Below, piece by piece: positions 26,463 to 34,402 of a DNA stretch of 36,874 bases. The stretch lies in contig JAGXAY010000012.1 in the NCBI GenBank assembly GCA_018971385.1, positions 1 through 36,874 of the forward strand, read 5' to 3'. The notes below the pieces were generated by a model, which worked only from the letters and a program-made list of their open reading frames with translations, was not told where the DNA came from and did not search any database. This DNA is from Acidobacteriota bacterium (GTDB taxonomy: Bacteria > Actinomycetota > Acidimicrobiia > Acidimicrobiales > RAAP-2). Each line of letters starts with the position of its first letter. The stretch's first letter is position 1. A program made the translations under genes and the position numbers.

Positions 26463-26834
26463 TTAGGCGCTCGGAGCCTTCTGCGCGGCGATGTCCGCGT
26501 GGACCTTCTCCATGTCGACCGCTCGAGCCTGCTCGACGAGATCGCGTAGGGCGGCCTCAGGAAGGGCGCCGGCCTGGGAGAAGATGACAACCTGTTCGCG
26601 AATAATCATGAGCGTCGGAATCGACTGAATGTTGAACATGGACGCCAACTCGGGATTGGCCTCCGTGTCCACTTTGGCGAAGACGGCGTCCGGGAACTCG
26701 TCGGAGACCTTCGAGTAGTACGGGGCGAACATCCGACAGGGGCCGCACCACGACGCCCAAAAGTCCACCAGCACCATGTCGTTGGACGTGACAGTGGATT
26801 CGAAGTCGGCCAGGGTTAGGTCAACGGTACTCAT
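26463..26834 (-). CDS. trxA: Thioredoxin
   Basis: A 123-residue thioredoxin with active site WASWCGPCRMF (Cys30 and Cys33) and the cis-Pro loop QSIPTLMII. A slightly long C-terminal helical tail ends in AAQKAPSA. It reduces protein disulfides in the cytosol, needing a reductase not clearly present here. The ATG at 26832-26834 follows GAGAGGAG. An open frame extends upstream through non-coding promoter sequence and is not used. It is transcribed leftward from a promoter matching the sigma-R consensus (26914-26939), divergent from the Met-rich membrane protein gene. Confidence 0.95.
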   Translation of the reverse strand: MSTVDLTLADFESTVTSNDMVLVDFWASWCGPCRMFAPYYSKVSDEFPDAVFAKVDTEANPELASMFNIQSIPTLMIIREQVVIFSQAGALPEAALRDLVEQARAVDMEKVHADIAAQKAPSA

Positions 26835-26913: not shown

Positions 26914-26939
26914 AACGCGTCCCCCTTCAGCAATATTCC
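26914..26939 (-). promoter_or_regulatory. Sigma-R/SigH-type promoter for trxA
   Basis: Read on the minus strand, GGAAT (26939-26935) is followed after exactly 18 bases by GTT (26916-26914), continuing GTTGGG. GGAAT-N18-GTT is the consensus of disulfide-stress sigma factors (Streptomyces sigma-R, mycobacterial SigH). The predicted transcript start is about 70 bases before the trxA ATG. The -35 element shares the palindrome ATTCCGGAAT with the opposite promoter. Confidence 0.75.
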
Positions 26940-26965
26940 GGAATGTTTCACGTTGTCATTTCGTT
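26940..26965 (+). promoter_or_regulatory. Sigma-R/SigH-type promoter for the Met-rich membrane protein
   Basis: GGAAT (26940-26944), exactly 18 bases, then GTT (26963-26965), continuing GTTGGG. It matches the sigma-R/SigH consensus in sequence and spacing and abuts its mirror promoter for trxA. The predicted start lies about 40 bases before the ATG at 27013, leaving room for the AGGGAG ribosome-binding site at 27001-27006. Read-through could also express the sigma factor operon. Confidence 0.75.
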
Positions 26966-27012: not shown

Positions 27013-27816
27013 ATGGCCACATCCACTTACGCTTCCTCACCGGGGCGGATCACGACAGAACCCCTCCTCAACGCGCGACTCCTCGGTCGAGGGGTGGCCG
27101 GGGGCTTGATGGGTGGGGCCGTGTTGGCAATGTTCATGATGATCGTGATGGCGGCGAACGGGTCCGGGTTCTGGAGTCCCCTTAACCTCGGAATCTCGGC
27201 CTTCGCCTTCACTGTCGTTCCCCCGTTGTCGATGTTGCCCTCGCTCATGACCTTGATGGGAATCTCCCTGCCCGCGAGTGCGATGCCGATGATTCAGAGT
27301 GCCATCGCTTCGGGTCACTTCACCCCCGCCGTTATGAACAAGTTGGTGGCCATGTTGACGGCCATGCACGTTCCAGCGAGTCAGATTCACGCGATGGCGC
27401 CGCTGATGTCGGGTACGGCGACGAACGCCGACGTGGCGGCCCTGATGAGAATGATGACGGTATCTCAGCGCGACACCATGATGGGCATGATGCCGGTAAG
27501 TCCGGGTCGAGTCATCGTGGGCATGATGTTGCACTTCATGATGTCGGCCGTCTTGGGCGTCGTCTTCCTCGTCATCTTCCGTGCTGCTCGACGCGTCGGC
27601 CTAACCCTCGTGGAGGGTCCGATGGGCGCACTCGCCGCGGGGATGTTGGGTGGTGCGCTCGTCTACGCGGTGATGCGCTGGATTCTTCTTCCCCCGACCA
27701 ATTCGATGATGGCGTTCGTTCCTCAGTGGGCGTTCTTCCTCGCTCACCTCATGTTCGGCGCGGTGGTGGGACTCGTTGTGGCGAGGGGTTCCCACCCGCG
27801 TTCGGTGCGTGCGTAG
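27013..27816 (+). CDS. Methionine-rich membrane protein, unknown function
   Basis: A 267-residue membrane protein with about 33 Met residues (near 12%), many clustered as Met-Met pairs, e.g. TMMGMMPVSPGRVIVGMMLHFMM. It has a hydrophilic N-terminus of about 25 residues and then about five hydrophobic segments. Between the second and third is a Met/His-containing soluble stretch (about 90-160). I do not recognise the family. Clustered Met and His could bind Cu(I) or act as an oxidant sink; this is inference. Start ATG 27013 with AGGGAG six bases upstream. It is driven by a predicted sigma-R-type promoter and followed by a hairpin before the FAD oxidoreductase gene. Confidence 0.8.
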   Translation: MATSTYASSPGRITTEPLLNARLLGRGVAGGLMGGAVLAMFMMIVMAANGSGFWSPLNLGISAFAFTVVPPLSMLPSLMTLMGISLPASAMPMIQSAIASGHFTPAVMNKLVAMLTAMHVPASQIHAMAPLMSGTATNADVAALMRMMTVSQRDTMMGMMPVSPGRVIVGMMLHFMMSAVLGVVFLVIFRAARRVGLTLVEGPMGALAAGMLGGALVYAVMRWILLPPTNSMMAFVPQWAFFLAHLMFGAVVGLVVARGSHPRSVRA

Positions 27817-27824
27817 ATCTACGC
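27811..27824. repeat. 14-base palindrome at the stop of the Met-rich gene
   Basis: GCGTAGATCTACGC is an exact palindrome that contains the TAG stop codon of the Met-rich gene. It lies just before the hairpin at 27833-27875. It may be a protein-binding site or simply part of the 3'-end structure. Confidence 0.35.
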
Positions 27825-27832
27825 CCGTACCA

Positions 27833-27875
27833 CTAGGGACTGGCTCGCGCCGTGGGGGCACGGGCCAGTCCCTAG
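27833..27875 (+). terminator. Strong hairpin between the Met-rich and FAD oxidoreductase genes
   Basis: CTAGGGACTGGC (27833-27844) and GCCAGTCCCTAG (27864-27875) are an exact 12-bp inverted repeat. The stem extends inward by three more pairs, one a G-U. No U-tract follows. It lies 16 bases after the stop of the Met-rich gene and 41 bases before the next ATG, so it could be a terminator or an attenuator controlling read-through into the sigma factor operon. Overlap of a new promoter here is possible but no clear -35/-10 pair is visible. Confidence 0.6.
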
Positions 27876-27916
27876 GTCGTAGGGTCGTCGACGAGTCAAG
27901 GGAAGGAGTGCAGAAC

Positions 27917-29290
27917 ATGCCTCGCCGCCACACCACCTCCGACATCGTCATCGTGGGCGGTGGTTCCGCCGCGCTGGCCGCCGCAGCCACCGCCCTGCGT
28001 CGACGCGCCAGCGTCACGATTGTGAGTTCCGAGCCCTTGGGGGGTGACTGCACCTTTCGGGGGTGCATACCGTCCAAGACACTCCTCACGGCAGCTCGCG
28101 AGGGGCTCGATTACCAGGTCGCGCACCGTCGAGTGCGACAGGTTATCGACCGCATCGCCCTTACCGAAAACGCGGATGTCTGGCGCTCTCGTGGAGTAAC
28201 GGTGGTCGAGGGTCGAGCTCACTTCGACTCTCCCAAGCGGGTGGCCACGGACGACCTTTTTCTGGAAGCCTCCGCCTTCATCGTGGCTACGGGATCCGCG
28301 CCGGCGCTCCCGCCGATAGAAGGGTGGAAGGGCCCGTGGACGCTCACCACGGACCAACTCTTTGACGTGACGGAGATCCCGGCGCGACTTCTTATCGTGG
28401 GCGCGGGGCCCATCGGGGTTGAAATGGCTGAGGCGTTCTCTCGACTCGGGTCGCGGGTCACATTGTTCGAAGGGGCATCACGCATACTTCCTCGTGAAGA
28501 GCCCGAAGCGAGTGCCGTGATTCACGAGTTTCTGATCTCACTCGGCGTCACCATTGAGACGAGTATCACCATCCGTCGCGTGGAGCACTCGGCGCAGGCG
28601 CGAGTTCACCTCGACGACGGGCGAGTCGTGGAAGCGGATTACGTCCTCGGAGCGACGGGTCGACGTCCCCGATCTCACGCTCTCGGGGTCGACGCCGCCG
28701 GTTTCGTCCTCGCACCCAGCGGCGCCATCACGGTCGATTCTCGCCAGCGGACGTCGGTGCGCGGTATTTATGCGGCGGGAGACGTCGCGCACGCCCAGCA
28801 GTTCACTCACGTGGCGTACGAAACGGGACGAATTGCGGCGACGAACGCACTATCCCCCGTCCCGTGGCTCCGCTTTCACCCCGAGTGGGTGTCGGCCGTC
28901 ACGTACACGGCACTCGAAGTAGCTCGAGTGGGAGTGCGTGAGGTCGATCTCGTGGGGACGAATGCTCGCGTCGCCTATCTGCCCCTGCACGAGACGGATC
29001 GCGCCATCGTGAGCGGAGAAGAACGAGGATTCGTCAAAATCCTCGCCGTGCCCCGTCCCCTGAGTCGTCACCACCTCGGTGGGCGAATCGTCGGTGCGAC
29101 CATTGTGGCACCCCGGGCCGGAGAGATGATGGCCGAGTTGAGTGTGGCGATTCGGGGGCACTCTTCCACGCCCCGCCTGGCCCTCACCTCGCGGGCGTAT
29201 CCCACCTGGAGCGTGGCGGTTCAGCAAGCCGTCGCGCAGCTCTTCGGGGAGTTCGGGGGGCGAACCGCTCGTCCGGTAGCGTCGGAATGA
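27917..29290 (+). CDS. FAD-dependent pyridine nucleotide-disulfide oxidoreductase (MerA-like core)
   Basis: A 457-residue flavoprotein of the class I disulfide reductase family (lipoamide dehydrogenase, mercuric reductase core, mycothione reductase). It has FAD motif IVIVGGGSAALAAAA (10-24), redox-active pair GGDCTFRGCIPSKTLL (Cys45 and Cys50), NAD(P) site IVGAGPIGVEMAE, and GIYAAGDVAH for FAD. No N-terminal metal-binding HMA domain. The C-terminal motif reads RAYPTWSVAV, with Arg where related enzymes carry the catalytic-base His. Substrate is unknown; a thiol or disulfide metabolite fits the sigma-R-type context. ATG 27917 with GGAAGGAG eight bases upstream. Its stop overlaps the sigma factor start (ATGA). 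Confidence 0.85.
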   Translation: MPRRHTTSDIVIVGGGSAALAAAATALRRRASVTIVSSEPLGGDCTFRGCIPSKTLLTAAREGLDYQVAHRRVRQVIDRIALTENADVWRSRGVTVVEGRAHFDSPKRVATDDLFLEASAFIVATGSAPALPPIEGWKGPWTLTTDQLFDVTEIPARLLIVGAGPIGVEMAEAFSRLGSRVTLFEGASRILPREEPEASAVIHEFLISLGVTIETSITIRRVEHSAQARVHLDDGRVVEADYVLGATGRRPRSHALGVDAAGFVLAPSGAITVDSRQRTSVRGIYAAGDVAHAQQFTHVAYETGRIAATNALSPVPWLRFHPEWVSAVTYTALEVARVGVREVDLVGTNARVAYLPLHETDRAIVSGEERGFVKILAVPRPLSRHHLGGRIVGATIVAPRAGEMMAELSVAIRGHSSTPRLALTSRAYPTWSVAVQQAVAQLFGEFGGRTARPVASE

Positions 29291-29856
29291 ATCATGCACC
29301 GGGCGCGTTAGGAAGATCGATGGACTCTCACCCCGCCACGTCGTCGGACTCGCCGAACGCCTTTTCGGAGGCGGTGGCGGGGCAGTTGCCCGTTCTTTTG
29401 CGAGTAGCCCGGACGATGACGTCAACGACACAGGACGCCGAGGATCTCGTTCAAGAGACGCTCGTTCTTGCTTTTCGCCACTGGTCGAGCTTCGACGGCC
29501 GGTACCTGCGGTCATGGCTCTTCACCATTATGAGGAACGCCCACGCGTCTCGTCATCGGCGCCGCCGGTTGGACGAAGTGGAGACGCCGAGCGAGCTCGT
29601 GGACGATCGACACGTTGATCCCGCCGACGCCGCCGCCCAGAGCGGTTTTCGTGACGCCGTCGGCCGGGCTCTTGAGCACCTCGACGAGCGCTATCGCCAA
29701 GTGGTGATTCTGGTGGACGTGGAGGGCTGCAGCTACGCCGAGGCCGCCGTGGCGCTGGACGTTCCCTCGGGAACGGTGATGAGTCGATTACACCGAGCTC
29801 GACGCGACATGCGCCGGCTTCTCGAGTCGTGGGGCTACGGCCCCGGAAAGGAGTAA
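29287..29856 (+). CDS. ECF sigma factor, sigma-R/SigH-like
   Basis: A 189-residue RNA polymerase sigma factor with only regions 2 and 4. Region 2 spans about 27-95, including DAEDLVQETLVLAFRHWSSFDG (50-71) and RSWLFTIMRNAHASRHRRRR. Region 4 spans about 122-182, with the helix-turn-helix DVEGCSYAEAAVALDVPSGT followed by VMSRLHRARRDMRRLLES. The C-terminal part closely follows the sigma-R/SigH pattern of disulfide-stress sigma factors. ATG 29287 overlaps the preceding stop; an in-frame ATG at 29320 with GGAAG upstream is an alternative. The anti-sigma gene follows after four bases. Predicted targets in this window are trxA and the Met-rich gene through the GGAAT-N18-GTT promoters. Confidence 0.92.
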   Translation: MNHAPGALGRSMDSHPATSSDSPNAFSEAVAGQLPVLLRVARTMTSTTQDAEDLVQETLVLAFRHWSSFDGRYLRSWLFTIMRNAHASRHRRRRLDEVETPSELVDDRHVDPADAAAQSGFRDAVGRALEHLDERYRQVVILVDVEGCSYAEAAVALDVPSGTVMSRLHRARRDMRRLLESWGYGPGKE

Positions 29857-29860
29857 GACG

Positions 29861-30163
29861 ATGGCCGGGCGATCCTTCCTGGAGTCACTCCGAGAGATGA
29901 AGACGTGTCACGAAATGGGGAAATGGCTCCAGAACTACCTGGACGGAGAGATTGACTCGGCAACGGCCGACCAAGTTCGCGACCACCTCGTGACGTGCGT
30001 GAAGTGCGGCATGGAGTTCGAGACCTACCGGCGAATTGTCGAGTCGCTCGACGAGCGTCCTAGCACGCCGGCCGTTATCAGCGACGACGTGGCGGTAGCG
30101 CGACTTCGCCGCTTCGCGGAGAACCTCACGATGGGTAATCCACTCGACGAAGACGAGCAGTGA
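29861..30163 (+). CDS. Zinc anti-sigma factor, RsrA-like
   Basis: A 100-residue soluble anti-sigma factor of the ZAS type. Cys16, His42, Cys46 and Cys49 (motif DHLVTCVKC) have the same spacing as Cys11, His37, Cys41 and Cys44 of Streptomyces RsrA. RsrA is the zinc thiol switch that releases sigma-R when oxidised to a disulfide. The His found four residues before the first Cys in RsrA is Glu12 here, while His17 directly follows Cys16, so the fourth zinc ligand may differ. No transmembrane segment. Start ATG 29861 with GGAAAGGAG upstream. The stop overlaps the GTG of the radical SAM gene. Confidence 0.9.
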   Translation: MAGRSFLESLREMKTCHEMGKWLQNYLDGEIDSATADQVRDHLVTCVKCGMEFETYRRIVESLDERPSTPAVISDDVAVARLRRFAENLTMGNPLDEDEQ

Positions 30164-31560
30164 CGATGTCTCGGTGGAGAAAAATCGGGGAGGTCACCCG
30201 TCCCGTCTCGAGGGAGATGGCTCGTGCGCTCGCTGATAGGTGGCGGGAGTTGCCGGAACACGTGAAGACTCCCGCTCAAGTGCTGGGGCGTTTCGGTCTC
30301 GGCTGTGAGGGAACTCACGGAGTGTTTCCCCGGTGCAACTTTTCGTGTACGCCCTGCTACCACTCCAGTGACGCCAACCGAGTAAGGGTGGATGGGGAAC
30401 ACACCGTTCGACACGTAGACGCCCAGATGGAGTTCTTGGCCCAGCGAGCTCCCCACGCTCACGCCCAACTCATTGGCGGGGAAGTGACTCTGCTCGATCC
30501 GGATGATCACGCTCGAACCCTCCAGTCGATGCGTCGGTGGGGACGAGAACCCATGAGCTTTTCTCACGGTGATTTCGACTACGAGTATCTCGAACGACTG
30601 ACTCACGACGCGCAGGGAAGACGACGACTGCGGCGGATCTCATTCGCCGTGCATCTCGACACCACGATGCGGGGACGACGAGGACTTCGTCGAACGGATG
30701 ACGAACGGGCTCTCACTCCCTACCGAGCCGCCGTCATGGCAAATTTTCGTCGTCTTCGTCGTGAAAAGAAGGTCTCCAGTTTTGTGGCCCACAATATGAC
30801 GGTGACGCCGGCCAACGTCGACCAGATTGTGGACGTCGTCCGGGAGTCTCAGGGCTTTGGATTTGGAATGTACTCTTTCCAGCCGGCGGCGTTCGTTGGC
30901 GATCGACGCCGTTGGCGCGAGGACTATTCAACTCTCGATGCCGACCGAATCTGGTCGAAGATTGAGGAGGGGGCCGGTTCGCCACTCCCCTACCGAGTCC
31001 TTCAAGTAGGGGATCTACGGTGCAATCGAACAGCGTGGGGTTTTTACGTGGGCGATCAATGGACGAGCTTCTTCGACGAGAATGATCCGCGAGACCTCGA
31101 GGCCCGAGATGCCTTGTTGCGCGATCTCGGAGGAGTTCACTTCTCGGCGCCTCCTTTCCTGCTCGTCCTTCGACTGTCCCGCGTTGTCCTGCGCCATCCG
31201 ACACTCATTCTGACCGCGGGGAGCTGGACTGTTCGAACGGTGCGCCGAGCGGGTGGATGGAAGAAACTACTTCGAGAGCGACCTCGCATCACGACGTTCG
31301 TGATGCACCGCTTTATGGACGCGGAAGAGGTCGGCCCGGCGTGGCGGGATCTACAAGACGGAACGTGGGCGGACGTTCCCGAGCGACGAGAGGTGCACGA
31401 ACGACTCCTCGCGTGCTCCTACCGGATGGCTCACCCCGAGACCGGGCAGCTCGTCCCCGCCTGCGTCCAACACGGACTGCTGGATCCCGAAGAAAACCGT
31501 CACCTGGCGAACGAACTTCCGTTACCCCGGCGTCGCGTGAAGGAGAGTCTCGAGAGGTGA
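30160..31560 (+). CDS. Radical SAM protein, possibly lipid-modifying
   Basis: A 466-residue radical SAM enzyme. The [4Fe-4S] motif is Cys59-x3-Cys63-x2-Cys66 in PRCNFSCTPCYH. HAQLIGGEVTLL carries the Gly-Gly-Glu SAM motif with Val in place of the usual Pro, and VTPANVDQIVDVVRES leads into MYSFQPAAF. That last arrangement (N-x2-QI ... QP) recalls MJ0619/Tes-type enzymes that act on lipid chains, but similarity by eye is limited. Extra cysteines occur late (DLRCNRTAWG, LLACSYRM, PACVQHG) and could bind an auxiliary cluster. GTG 30160 overlaps the anti-sigma stop; ATG 30166 is equally possible. Coupled downstream to the phosphatidyltransferase, so a membrane-lipid substrate is inferred. Confidence 0.82.
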   Translation: MTMSRWRKIGEVTRPVSREMARALADRWRELPEHVKTPAQVLGRFGLGCEGTHGVFPRCNFSCTPCYHSSDANRVRVDGEHTVRHVDAQMEFLAQRAPHAHAQLIGGEVTLLDPDDHARTLQSMRRWGREPMSFSHGDFDYEYLERLTHDAQGRRRLRRISFAVHLDTTMRGRRGLRRTDDERALTPYRAAVMANFRRLRREKKVSSFVAHNMTVTPANVDQIVDVVRESQGFGFGMYSFQPAAFVGDRRRWREDYSTLDADRIWSKIEEGAGSPLPYRVLQVGDLRCNRTAWGFYVGDQWTSFFDENDPRDLEARDALLRDLGGVHFSAPPFLLVLRLSRVVLRHPTLILTAGSWTVRTVRRAGGWKKLLRERPRITTFVMHRFMDAEEVGPAWRDLQDGTWADVPERREVHERLLACSYRMAHPETGQLVPACVQHGLLDPEENRHLANELPLPRRRVKESLER

Positions 31561-32177
31561 TTGATGCGCGGGCCCGGATCATGGTTGCTCCGGTGTTGGC
31601 TCGAGTGGCCGGTCGACTCGATCGTCGTGGTGTCTCTCCCGACGCGCTCACCCTGGCGGGTGTCGGAGCCGGACTTCTCAGCGTGGGAGCGATTCTGCTC
31701 CACTGGTGGTGGATTGCCCTCGGAGGGTGGTGGGCAAATCGTGTGCTCGACGGTCTCGATGGCGCACTCGCGCGCCGGCGCACCCCGAGTGAAATCGGGG
31801 GCTACCTCGACCTCGTCGCGGATTTTTTCATCTACGGTGCTCTCGTCGGATCACTGGGCTACGCCATCCCGAGTGCACGGGTCGCGAGCCTCTTTCTCCT
31901 CGTCGCGTACTACCTCTCGGGAACTGCCCTCCTCGCGGGGTCAGCGATCATTGCCCGTCGCGGTGCGCCAGACGAGGAGCGATCGCTCATCTTTCTCGGT
32001 GGACTCGCGGAGGGAACGGAGACCATCGTTGCCATGAGTCTCATCATGGTGCATCCCGGTTGGGCGGTGCCCGTAGAAGTGGGGTTCGGAGTCATGGTGA
32101 TGGTGACCTTCGTGCAACGCGTCGCGGGTGCGCTGTCGATTCTCCGGACGCGGGACGTGACGGGAGGTGAGCGATGA
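31557..32177 (+). CDS. CDP-alcohol phosphatidyltransferase family protein
   Basis: A 206-residue integral membrane enzyme with about five helices. The signature D-x2-D-G-x2-A-R ... G-x3-D-x3-D is present as VLDGLDGALARR (Asp65, Asp68, Gly69, Ala72, Arg73) followed by GGYLDLVADF (Asp85, Asp89). These residues bind the CDP-lipid and metal. It would transfer a phosphatidyl (or similar) group from a CDP-activated lipid to an alcohol acceptor such as inositol phosphate, glycerol phosphate or an unknown. An upstream open frame runs through the radical SAM gene. The GTG at 31557 overlaps its stop (GTGA) and gives the normal family length. The stop overlaps the methyltransferase start (ATGA). Confidence 0.9.
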   Translation: MIDARARIMVAPVLARVAGRLDRRGVSPDALTLAGVGAGLLSVGAILLHWWWIALGGWWANRVLDGLDGALARRRTPSEIGGYLDLVADFFIYGALVGSLGYAIPSARVASLFLLVAYYLSGTALLAGSAIIARRGAPDEERSLIFLGGLAEGTETIVAMSLIMVHPGWAVPVEVGFGVMVMVTFVQRVAGALSILRTRDVTGGER

Positions 32178-32944
32178 ACAGGGACGCGTGGGCGTCTTAC
32201 GTGAACGCGTTTCATCATCGATACCCCGGAATCACCCAGGACGTTCTTCGACTCGCCCGCAACCACGCCGGACTAACACCCTACGGGTGGATTGCGGCGG
32301 AGTTACCCCCGGTGGGCCTGGTGGTTGACCTGGCGTGTGGGGCGGGCCCTCTCGCGGAGTTGGTGGGGTCCTCTCGGTGGCTCGGACTCAACATCTCGGC
32401 GGCGGAGGTCGGACGAGCGAGAGATGAAGGGGTTCGTGGGGTCGTGCGAGCGGATGTGCGGGCGGTCCCGCTCGCGAGTGCGTCGGTGGACACCCTCGTC
32501 TGCTCGATGGCCCTCATGGTCGCTCCCGTCGCTGATGTCTTTCGGGAAAGTGCTCGCTTGCTTCGTCCCGGAGGGTGCCTCATCGCGACGACCCCCACGT
32601 GGCGAGGGCAAGGGTGGGCTGACCTCCGACGGACCTGGACGCTGTGGCGCGCGTGGGGGGACCGTCCCCAGTTCGCGAGCCGTTCACGGGAGAGTGCTCG
32701 ATGGGCGACGTACTACGGCATGGAGGTCGCCAGTGATCTCGTTGATCGATTCGATCTGCCTCTCGATCGAGACTCCGCGCAACTACTCGCGGACTCCCTC
32801 TACGCCCCCAGATCCACCGACGAATCTCGCCGGCGACTAGTCGACGGACTCCTAACGCTGCCGGACGGGAACTTCTCCCTCGTTCTACGTCGCCAACGTT
32901 GGGTGGTCGCACCGCTGCGGACCAGTCGGGGTCCTACGCCTTGA
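32174..32944 (+). CDS. Class I SAM-dependent methyltransferase
   Basis: A 256-residue soluble Rossmann-type methyltransferase (Methyltransf_11 style). Motif I is LVVDLACGAGPLAEL (49-63). GLNISAAEVGRAR follows, then VRADVRAVPLASASVDTLVCSMALM and the post-motif LLRPGGCLIATTPT. The C-terminal part has a helical lid and no membrane segment. The substrate is unknown. Coupling to the CDP-alcohol phosphatidyltransferase by ATGA overlap suggests it methylates the head group or the product of the radical SAM step. Last gene of the operon; its 3' end overlaps the convergent permease gene by 11 bases. Confidence 0.88.
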   Translation: MNRDAWASYVNAFHHRYPGITQDVLRLARNHAGLTPYGWIAAELPPVGLVVDLACGAGPLAELVGSSRWLGLNISAAEVGRARDEGVRGVVRADVRAVPLASASVDTLVCSMALMVAPVADVFRESARLLRPGGCLIATTPTWRGQGWADLRRTWTLWRAWGDRPQFASRSRESARWATYYGMEVASDLVDRFDLPLDRDSAQLLADSLYAPRSTDESRRRLVDGLLTLPDGNFSLVLRRQRWVVAPLRTSRGPTP

Positions 32945-34385
32945 GTGGCGGAGTCGAGGGGCGGTAGGTGAGCAGCACGGGGGAGTCGTGCAACCGCGCT
33001 GAGACGCCGGGAATCCGGCTGAGGGCCGCCCCGAAAGTAACGCTCAGGGCGGCGGTTGCGATAATCCAGGAGTAGGGGGCGGGGGGCCACGGATGGAACG
33101 TGTCGTAGACGACAACCCCGAGGACGAGAACCCCGAGAAGCAGTGCGAGGAGTGACCGGAGCGAACCTCGCTGGCGGACCACCCACACGGCCGCCGCGCC
33201 CACGGTGAGTAGGTACGCGAGAATGATGAGATAGGCACCGTACTCGACTATCAGAGTGAGGGCTCGTACTGCGGTGGGCTCTGTCGAGAAGGCGAGAAGG
33301 AGAGCGAGCGACGACGCGGCCGTCACGAGCAGGGCACCGTGGGGAGTGCCGTGACGAGGGTGCACGGCGGTGATGAAGCGCCGCAAGGGTCCCGGGGAGA
33401 AAACATCGCGACCGAGGGCGTAGATGAGTCGATTCGCGGCTACGACACAGGCGAGTTGTGCGCCAAAGGCACTGATGACGCCCGCGATGTTGACCGCCGT
33501 CCCCATGCCGGAACCCACGTAGGTCTGGCCCAAGTGAACAAATGGCGCCGGGTCGTTCGCGAGGCTCGCCGGTGACGCGTACGCGTTATCCGCAACCCAC
33601 GTAAAAAAGATGTAGACCAGTGCTGAACCCACGAGAGACGCCGCGATGGCCCGCGGAATCGATCGGTGCGGAGCGGTGGACTCCTCTCCGAGAACGGCGG
33701 CACCCTCGAAGCCACTGAAGGCGCCGAAGGCGTTGACGACACCAAGCCCGAGGGCGCCCCAGCTCACCCCCCGTGGTGAGAAGGGGTGGAGGGAGAGCGC
33801 GTGGTGGACTCCGCTCCTGCCGATCACCGCGACGGCGACGACGGCGAGGAGTACGACCGCGACAACCTCCACCACCAACATGACGGATGTGGCGTACTGG
33901 AGGGGTCGATAGGCCACGGCGATGGTCAGGACAAAACCGGCGAGGGCGAAGAATATCCACGGTAAGTGCACTCCGACCGAAGCCGCTAGGTTCTGGGCAA
34001 TGTCGGCACTCGAGGCGTAGACCGCACTCGCGAAGGAGATATAAACGAGGAGCAGCGTCCAAGCGGACACGAATCCGAATCGGGGACCTAGGGCAGCCGC
34101 GTTGAAGGCGTAGACCGAACCGGCGCTGTGCATTCGTCGGGAGAAGATGACGAAGGCGTACGCCACGAAAGACATGGCGACGAATCCCAGGAGATACGCG
34201 AGGGCGCCCGCGGGGCCGACCAGTGACGCGAGTACGGCGGGACCCACAATCACGCCAGCGACGGGGCCCTGAATCCCTACCGAAAGCGCCAGGGTTCGCC
34301 AGGTTTTGAGGTGATTTGCTCGTAAGGGATCGACCCCGGACACATTGCTAGGCATTGCGTGAAAGAACGCGCGGAAGCGGTGCAT
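32934..34385 (-). CDS. APC family amino-acid permease
   Basis: A 483-residue permease with about 12 hydrophobic segments. The first helix region (LALSVGIQGPVAGVIVGP) corresponds to the unwound helix 1 of the APC fold. NAFGAFSGFEGAAVLGEES in the sixth-helix region is the usual APC substrate-site pattern (G-F-E). It probably imports amino acids or amines by proton or sodium symport, or exchanges them; substrate unknown. ATG 34383-34385 with a weak GGGA upstream. The preceding gene in the same direction is the secreted protein gene, separated by 60 bases that contain a hairpin. Confidence 0.87.
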   Translation of the reverse strand: MHRFRAFFHAMPSNVSGVDPLRANHLKTWRTLALSVGIQGPVAGVIVGPAVLASLVGPAGALAYLLGFVAMSFVAYAFVIFSRRMHSAGSVYAFNAAALGPRFGFVSAWTLLLVYISFASAVYASSADIAQNLAASVGVHLPWIFFALAGFVLTIAVAYRPLQYATSVMLVVEVVAVVLLAVVAVAVIGRSGVHHALSLHPFSPRGVSWGALGLGVVNAFGAFSGFEGAAVLGEESTAPHRSIPRAIAASLVGSALVYIFFTWVADNAYASPASLANDPAPFVHLGQTYVGSGMGTAVNIAGVISAFGAQLACVVAANRLIYALGRDVFSPGPLRRFITAVHPRHGTPHGALLVTAASSLALLLAFSTEPTAVRALTLIVEYGAYLIILAYLLTVGAAAVWVVRQRGSLRSLLALLLGVLVLGVVVYDTFHPWPPAPYSWIIATAALSVTFGAALSRIPGVSARLHDSPVLLTYRPSTPPLKA

Positions 34386-34402
34386 TATTCCCGTTGTCTT
34401 TT

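Follow-up and report, generated by a model that had tools for sequence, protein, structure and literature searches.

We propose, at what we judge to be an even chance, that a thiol-oxidation switch resembling SigR/RsrA governs both repair genes of thioredoxin type and a conserved biosynthetic module whose likely result is a modified phospholipid, encoded around positions 27917–32944 of contig JAGXAY010000012.1 (assembly GCA_018971385.1, deposited as Acidobacteriota bacterium and placed by GTDB in the Acidimicrobiales). The whole stretch analysed, 36,874 nucleotides (nt) and called the window below, forms a single contig in an assembly of 2.1 Mb (221 contigs, 96% complete), and a base composition scan found its GC content flat at 62–68%.

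A predicted SigR-type switch beside a putative biosynthetic module

Gene families were assigned by Pfam and NCBIfam profile matches, each judged against its family cut-off. For comparison, 62 radical S-adenosylmethionine (SAM) loci were reduced to 49 by dereplication at 88% identity (13 loci dropped); two fragments (L017, L086) and two duplicates (L020 of L011, L021 of L010) had been excluded before loci were counted. The features on which the argument draws are:

26463–26834, minus strand: thioredoxin, predicted regulon member (TIGR01068, 104.8 bits, above the cut-off of 96.8), SigR-type site 79 nt upstream
26914–26939, minus strand: SigR-type promoter-like site GGAAT-N18-GTT before the thioredoxin gene (pattern match)
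26940–26965, plus strand: SigR-type promoter-like site before the membrane protein gene (pattern match)
27013–27816, plus strand: orphan membrane protein (MEM), with homologs near 8 of the 49 radical SAM loci, window counted
27833–27875, plus strand: strong hairpin between the MEM and FAD genes, 15 bp, without a T run (fold of 27817–27916, z-score -4.32)
27917–29290, plus strand: flavin adenine dinucleotide (FAD) pyridine-nucleotide disulfide oxidoreductase, MerA-related, with a CTFRGC redox pair (Pyr_redox_2, 207.6 bits)
29284–29309, plus strand: SigR-type promoter-like site before the sigma gene, overlapping the FAD stop (pattern match)
29320–29856, plus strand (frame opens at 29287): extracytoplasmic function (ECF) sigma factor, SigH/SigR-like (Sigma70_r4_2, 68 bits, above cut-off)
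29861–30163, plus strand: zinc anti-sigma factor, C16-H42-C46-C49 (zf-HC2, 30 bits, above cut-off)
30160–31560, plus strand, GTG start: radical SAM protein with a Tes-like core and C-terminal cysteines C288, C419 and C435 (Radical_SAM, 23.1 bits, under the cut-off of 29.5)
31557–32177, plus strand, GTG start: cytidine diphosphate (CDP)-alcohol phosphotransferase of YnjF type (CDP-OH_P_transf, PF01066, 35.3 bits, cut-off 22)
32174–32944, plus strand: class I SAM methyltransferase that forms an orthologous family of its own (Methyltransf_11, 48.7 bits, above cut-off; nearest NCBIfam model DVU_1556, distant)
32934–34355, minus strand (frame opens at 34385): amino-acid-type permease of the amino acid-polyamine-organocation (APC) class (AA_permease_2, 125.7 bits), which several relatives have in the same orientation as the module
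34366–34391, minus strand: SigR-type promoter-like site before the permease gene (pattern match)

All six reading frames of 27917–32944 proved intact, and the near-gapless six-gene array described in an earlier note on this DNA is exactly as written there, with junctions ATGA, a 4-base gap, GTGA, GTGA and ATGA. Its family names also hold, since five of the six proteins score above their Pfam cut-offs and the radical SAM protein is recognized by an invariant CX3CX2C motif and its predicted fold. The joining of all six genes stands only in part: the overlaps exist, but the one between the FAD and sigma genes is probably no translational coupling. Translation of the sigma factor probably starts at the ATG at 29320, 10 nt past the site at 29284–29309, and not at 29287, where the ATG, like the stop codon of the FAD gene, is overlapped by that site; reading of the sequence at L010, L018, L019 and L022 likewise places an ATG ~9 nt beyond the sigma-gene site. 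Such a start would make the sigma, anti-sigma, radical SAM, CDP-alcohol transferase and methyltransferase genes a likely five-gene unit. The gene set also reaches past 27917–32944, the thioredoxin, membrane protein and permease genes carrying the same kind of site.

The closest solved relative of the sigma factor is an ECF SigH of M. tuberculosis (chain 5zx2_F, E = 7.5e-25), and the protein is the sole match of its genome to the SigH/SigR model TIGR02947 at E≤1e-10. The CHCC residues of the anti-sigma factor have a spacing identical to that of RsrA (C11-H37-C41-C44) and recur in 14 of 15 anti-sigma matches (dereplicated loci, window counted); the N-terminal cysteine of RsrA is required for disulfide sensing (PMC4960319). 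The arrangement thus shares with SigR/RsrA of Streptomyces and SigH/RshA of Mycobacterium and Corynebacterium an ECF sigma gene adjoining one for a CHCC zinc anti-sigma, and shares with their regulons GGAAT...GTT promoters and thioredoxin-type targets, the latter being characteristic of known SigR/SigH regulons. It differs in that both proteins fall far under the equivalog cut-offs and in that the sigma unit itself includes radical SAM, YnjF-type and methyltransferase genes. The anti-sigma spacing and the promoter-like sites lend in silico support to the sigma-R/RsrA-like pair named in the earlier note, and we regard thiol-stress control in the window's clade as very likely.

Promoter-like sites in the window, the genome and relatives

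SigR- and SigH-dependent promoters take the form GGAAT...GTT (PMC3489674). The 36.9 kb window has four matches to GGAAT-N18-GTT (shuffles mean 0.53, none of 100 reaching four), and these promoter-like sequences precede the thioredoxin, orphan membrane protein, sigma and APC permease genes. A genome-wide search with GGAAT-N17-CGTT returned 12 matches in 2.1 Mb, four of them inside a 7.5 kb section of the window (P = 7.8e-8 if evenly spread, for a pattern, with its extra C, and an interval both chosen after the four sites were seen), and the reversed pattern returned none. Another of the 12 lies 36 nt ahead of a mycoredoxin-like/thioredoxin reductase-like fusion gene (L176:1501-2756), whose halves score 73.1 against 89.5 and 283.9 against 343.45 bits, both under cut-off, and for six of the remaining matches no convincing gene was found. 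A 67% identical piece of this fusion gene adjoins the module in genome G713 (L198). The last match (L174) stands 78 nt before the shorter murJ start, inside its longer frame, and may be chance.

In relatives, GGAAY-N18-GTT was counted in the orientation of each gene, over an interval running from 200 nt ahead of its estimated start to 40 nt past it. Across the 49 loci it precedes 6/19 FAD, 9/17 sigma, 7/45 radical SAM, 4/12 permease, 5/8 membrane protein, 2/9 thioredoxin-like and 1/5 CcdA-like genes, which together make 34 sites as compared with a mean of 0.23 and a maximum of 1 for 44 permuted patterns. Matches of a second FAD query (1/18) and VTT genes (1/10) rarely have one. No site precedes anti-sigma (0/15), CDP-alcohol transferase (0/28) or methyltransferase (0/12) genes, as expected of inner operon genes. 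Five loci without a sigma gene in cis have a site just upstream of the radical SAM gene (L024, L039, L044, L053, L082; L024, L039 and L082 have <2 kb on one or both sides of it), so control in trans is possible. Among eight loci of named actinomycetes (L040, L042, L045, L046, L049, L051, L052, L054), a placed site was confined to one gene, that for VTT at L054, and the sites are therefore mostly an acidimicrobial feature. The loci of Pseudonocardia sp. N23, Kineosporia sp. R_H_3 and Cryobacterium sp. Y50, strains that carry the enzymes, show no SigR-type site ahead of the sigma or radical SAM gene.

Several observations weigh against the proposed reading, here on the side of regulation and below on that of chemistry. 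The sigma factor scores 95.1 bits with TIGR02947 (cut-off 251.55) and the anti-sigma factor 26.9 bits with the RsrA model TIGR03988 (cut-off 62.5); no other protein of the genome exceeds either cut-off. The looser pattern GGAAY-N17-19-GTT has nine matches in the window, a number reached in 10 of 100 shuffles, so that the exact GGAAT-N18-GTT form carries the signal, and the seven gene classes were picked after matches had been seen, with permuted patterns counted on the same classes. Importer genes lack the site (binding proteins 0/15, ATPases 0/16), as does the Kineosporia locus L046, and a sigma gene stands in cis at only 16 of the 49 loci. Congeners with a sigma match of at least 43% identity number 9 of 61 genomes, own counted; the radical SAM gene lies beside that sigma in six (the window genome, G008, G020, G692, G704, G713), and the other three (G002, G699, G710) have sigma and anti-sigma genes in a stretch that holds neither an FAD, radical SAM or CDP-alcohol transferase gene nor a match to GGAAY-N18-GTT, which shows that such sigma factors have another use as well. 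Finally, no SigR-type site directly precedes the window's FAD gene, which may be transcribed from the membrane-protein site, though a strong hairpin intervenes.

Only 1 of 200 shuffles of 27817–27916 folds as stably as this hairpin region; the hairpin itself (27833–27875) is a candidate terminator, attenuator or processing site. Sigma-70-type promoters and terminators in the window were near shuffle level. On a different contig, G020, which already has the module, carries a second FAD–sigma–anti-sigma set (L199:4027-6172, sigma orientation) with SigR-type sites before both its FAD and sigma genes. The membrane protein at 27013–27816 matched nothing in Pfam or NCBIfam at E≤0.01 and, with sites before five of the eight genes of its kind, is a candidate for a new thiol-stress protein family.

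Conservation of the gene neighbourhood

Neighbours were counted by BLAST (E≤1e-4) within 9.5 kb of the radical SAM gene, a procedure that may over-count large families. Of the 49 loci, 31 had an FAD-type gene, 28 a CDP-alcohol transferase, 16 a sigma factor (14 with anti-sigma), 14 a YnjB-type binding protein, 13 a methyltransferase, 12 an APC permease, 10 a VTT protein and 8 the membrane protein, where the FAD, sigma and methyltransferase figures may take in other members of those families and many contigs are short. For the 28 loci flanked by 4 kb or more in each direction, the corresponding numbers are 21, 19, 12 (10), 10, 9, 8, 9 and 6. The CDP-alcohol transferase gene follows the radical SAM gene within 220 nt on the same strand at 17/49 loci (44 have at least 700 nt there), which argues against chance, and an anti-sigma gene lies within 220 nt upstream of the radical SAM gene at 8/49. 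Loci with CDP-alcohol transferase genes, and likewise those with sigma genes, occur in both of the clades into which a midpoint-rooted radical SAM tree first divides, and at L023 and L059 the order is reshuffled with the set still together.

Two settings can be told apart. In the acidimicrobial one, many metagenome-assembled genomes (MAGs) hold the module with an APC permease and mostly with sigma and anti-sigma genes; in Pseudonocardia, Kineosporia, Microbacteriaceae and others, the radical SAM gene lies near genes for a YnjB-family binding protein (the two tested score 433.5 and 381.2 bits, family cut-off 203), for two permeases and an ATPase and, in most cases, for a VTT protein. One MAG labelled Acidobacteriota (REEB343) has three different radical SAM loci (L039, L041, L061), as paralogs or by misbinning, and several MAG names (Acidobacteriota, Bacillota, Chloroflexi) may reflect misbinning.

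The conservation that the earlier note proposed to survey was thus found in part. Radical SAM and CDP-alcohol transferase genes do recur together, but these lipid-type genes are accompanied by a sigma gene at a minority of radical SAM loci and at half (14/28) of those with a CDP-alcohol transferase gene. Its statement that no described system joins these families agrees with the literature searched, where the portions available gave no account of the combination. An ordinary SigR-type regulon could instead lie beside unrelated genes gathered by chance or transfer, as the rarity of the radical SAM protein (3/41 relatives, 7/296 class genomes including one fragment and 12/396 phylum genomes including fragments, own counted) and the three congeners holding the sigma without the module might suggest; yet the neighbourhood is retained at 50–71% radical SAM identity despite its reshuffled order, and promoter-like sites stand before scattered members, which makes this explanation very improbable. 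A functional link of the radical SAM, YnjF-type, FAD and methyltransferase genes can be held with good confidence.

Predicted fold and possible chemistry of the radical SAM protein

The CX3CX2C motif is invariant in 39/39 rows of the family alignment, window counted. Sequence searches of solved structures, with the family profile and with L064 as query, found no relative of note. The predicted structure (mean predicted local distance difference test score, pLDDT, 85.9) was best matched in Foldseek by tetraether synthase (Tes; E = 2.9e-11 across 457 columns, against 2.4e-6 across 245 for the next family), and Tes (7tom) also came first in the VIA fold comparison, where it reached Z 21.9 across 348 residues with an rmsd of 4.4 Å and the next family Z 14.6 across 218. 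Eight actinobacterial Tes homologs, which score 232 to 319 bits with the Tes model NF045702 and so lie under its cut-off of 450, served for alignment and share with the window protein C49, C59, C63, C66, GGE106-108, C288, C419 and C435. The C-terminal cluster of Tes captures the substrate radical as a C–S bond (PMC9433317). On the basis of the modelled fold and these cysteines, the protein may work in a Tes-like way.

On the chemical side, the points against are that the protein scores 15.3 bits with NF045702, that its identity to the actinobacterial Tes homologs is 16–20%, that profile comparison gave a weak 42% probability (E = 2.6e-4), that the Foldseek template modelling (TM) score to Tes is just 0.54, and that the cluster loop (57–74) is modelled under pLDDT 50. 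The general SPASM/twitch pattern is likewise recognizable in C419-x9-G-x5-C435, so that the step from these cysteines to a lipid is less secure. While Tes/GDGT-MAS has the overall fold, CX3CX2C and the three aligning C-terminal cysteines in common with the protein, the window protein's family lacks the N-auxiliary cluster cysteines, whose columns are gaps in 39/39 rows, and the rubredoxin-type ligands, whose columns mostly hold D, T, L and H in place of Cys-Cys-Cys-His. Given the failed cut-off and the absent N-terminal sites, the protein is not a Tes. Weak model matches among the 39 rows (E≤0.1) include TrsS (37), viperin-like (37) and Tes (30, with the lowest best E); the window protein scores 20.6 bits with the TrsS model NF045646 (cut-off 490).

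ArsS and HpnH are radical SAM enzymes that add a 5′-deoxyadenosyl group, and an enzyme acting likewise, followed by a trimming nucleoside phosphorylase, would give a compound derived from an adenosyl or ribosyl group, which might serve detoxification. An MTAP-like phosphorylase does follow the radical SAM gene at eight loci (L026, L027, L029, L031, L038, L055, L056, L057), six of which also have a TIGR04282-type transferase (the contigs of L026 and L031 end first). The eight, however, form one group at 88% identity (1/49), the phosphorylase may merely salvage 5′-deoxyadenosine, and neither ArsS nor HpnH is among the 12 families matched by the 39 rows at E≤0.1; we consider adenosylation quite unlikely. 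No YnjF-type gene was found in these eight stretches. At L029:9461-10938, the radical SAM gene is followed by the phosphorylase and a TIGR04282 "arsenosugar" transferase; an arsenosugar pathway was rejected, as this succession occurs in one group only and ArsS is unmatched by the 39 rows.

Transferase, methyltransferase and the nature of the product

The CDP-alcohol motif of the transferase (D65, D68, G69, A72, R73, G81, D85, D89) is invariant in 22/22 rows (the window and 21 loci, out of 28 CDP-alcohol transferase genes), an initial pattern with an overlong spacer having matched 6/28. Over 199 residues the protein is 36% identical to E. coli YnjF (E = 4e-32), and at E≤1e-5 YnjF is matched by CDP-alcohol transferase genes from 32 loci, a number that includes duplicates. 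Its own genome has four PF01066 genes; the best paralog match is E = 2e-4, and both compared paralogs lack GGLxEGTETI (L091 escaped the motif search and stands outside this comparison). The model of the transferase (pLDDT 90.9) matches phosphatidylinositol phosphate (PIP) synthases at Z 17.6–20.4, one of which tops the list, with cholinephosphotransferase (14.9), phosphatidylglycerol phosphate (PGP) synthase (14.0) and phosphatidylserine (PS) synthase (10.8) lower down. With the PIP synthase model NF045883 it scores 32.5 bits (cut-off 170).

The same regulon could serve a module whose product is a soluble phosphodiester or other small molecule, its precursor brought in by the importer or permease. 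DIPPS makes a soluble phosphodiester; the Archaeoglobus enzyme (4mnd, E = 5e-11) leads the sequence matches of the transferase family in the PDB, a further point against a lipid, and DIPPS and AF2299 have fold scores (Z 18.3–18.4, DIPPS 18.4) inside the PIP synthase range. A permease or YnjB-type gene is, moreover, linked at 26/49 loci (12 + 14). The top fold scores of the transferase are nevertheless those of PIP synthases, the radical SAM fold is Tes-like, and VTT/DedA-like genes are linked at 10/49 loci, so that a soluble product, while deserving real weight, seems somewhat unlikely. The likeness to PIP synthase and DIPPS makes an inositol-type alcohol the first guess for the substrate, lipid or soluble. 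For the module's product, a lipid is made plausible by the Tes-like fold, the YnjF/PIP-synthase-like transferase and the VTT/DedA-like genes near relatives' loci, and we place it at about the midpoint between likely and unlikely. Of the phospholipid under thiol stress suggested in the earlier note, the tie of the sigma pair to the radical SAM, transferase and methyltransferase genes is thus borne out, whereas the lipid identity is plausible only.

The methyltransferase orthologous group spans both settings, with GIT near the N-terminus invariant in 11/11 rows; DVU_1556 (TrsM; NF045667) is its commonest model match (11/11) at a distant 44.8 bits (cut-off 155). A CxxxxC pattern occurs in 24/39 FAD matches. 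Mercury resistance was rejected, the FAD protein scoring 295.6 bits with the MerA model TIGR02053 (cut-off 454) and no CC pair being found among its 25 C-terminal residues in the window.

Relation to the E. coli ydj-ynj locus

In E. coli MG1655 the genes run ydjX, Y, Z, ynjA, B, C, D, E, with ynjF on the opposite strand. The window shares with this locus a transferase of YnjF type bearing the GGLxEGTETI motif, and other actinobacteria carry YnjB, YnjD and YdjX/Z relatives near the radical SAM gene. It differs in that the annotated E. coli locus, while containing YnjF, has no radical SAM gene, which again counts against our reading, and no methyltransferase gene, and in that the window genome, without a YnjB match at E≤1e-30, has no complete ydj-ynj system. 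Across 396 phylum genomes, YnjB occurs in 36 and the radical SAM protein in 12, and the two lists share six (1.1 expected, P = 2e-4, if both draws are from the same 396 genomes). Stretches with YnjB-type, CDP-alcohol transferase and FAD genes and no radical SAM gene also exist (e.g., L163–L165, L167); at L167:7205-14401, sigma and anti-sigma genes lie beside YnjBCD-type, CDP-alcohol transferase and FAD genes, with no radical SAM gene in the stretch.

FNR activates ydjXYZ-ynjABCD (PMC3688515), ynjABCDEFI clusters genetically with the Suf iron-sulfur genes (PMC3930520), and the literature searched gave no function for YnjF or the locus; related work was also consulted (PMC13188914, PMC13118837, PMC3836016, PMC2731931, PMC9207381, PMC8941075, PMC11186832). 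A bolder and decidedly unlikely extension is that a short bacterial branch of Tes-like enzymes, induced by disulfide stress, forms C–C or C–S bonds on phospholipids with a YnjF-type head-group enzyme, toughening the membrane, and that E. coli YnjF is a stripped-down remnant of such a lipid pathway.

Proposed working and implications

By analogy with RsrA, oxidants would form a disulfide in the CHCC anti-sigma factor, causing zinc loss and release of the sigma factor, which would then transcribe from the observed GGAAT-N18-GTT sites, to which we infer that it binds. Besides its own five-gene unit, it is predicted to control the genes for thioredoxin, the mycoredoxin–thioredoxin reductase-like fusion, the permease and the membrane protein. 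Judging from fold and cysteines, the Tes-like radical SAM enzyme would activate a C–H bond of a lipid or polyol substrate; the YnjF-type enzyme would join a CDP-activated partner and an alcohol by a phosphodiester, most likely giving an inositol-type phospholipid; and the methyltransferase would complete the product. Precursors may be supplied by the permease or, in other actinobacteria, by a YnjBCD-like importer. The likely outcome would be a modified membrane phospholipid made or repaired under thiol stress.

The gene set brings into one testable unit three unknowns, namely a Tes-like radical SAM family, the E. coli ydj-ynj locus with YnjF, and the roles of thiol-stress regulons past thiol repair, and the promoter signature defines a regulon for direct testing. 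If a lipid is made, the system would provide a redox-inducible membrane change; if not, metabolomics of strains that have the complete set should be able to reveal the YnjF-type product. Either way, the findings suggest that some actinobacteria may alter a phospholipid or related phosphodiester in oxidative stress.

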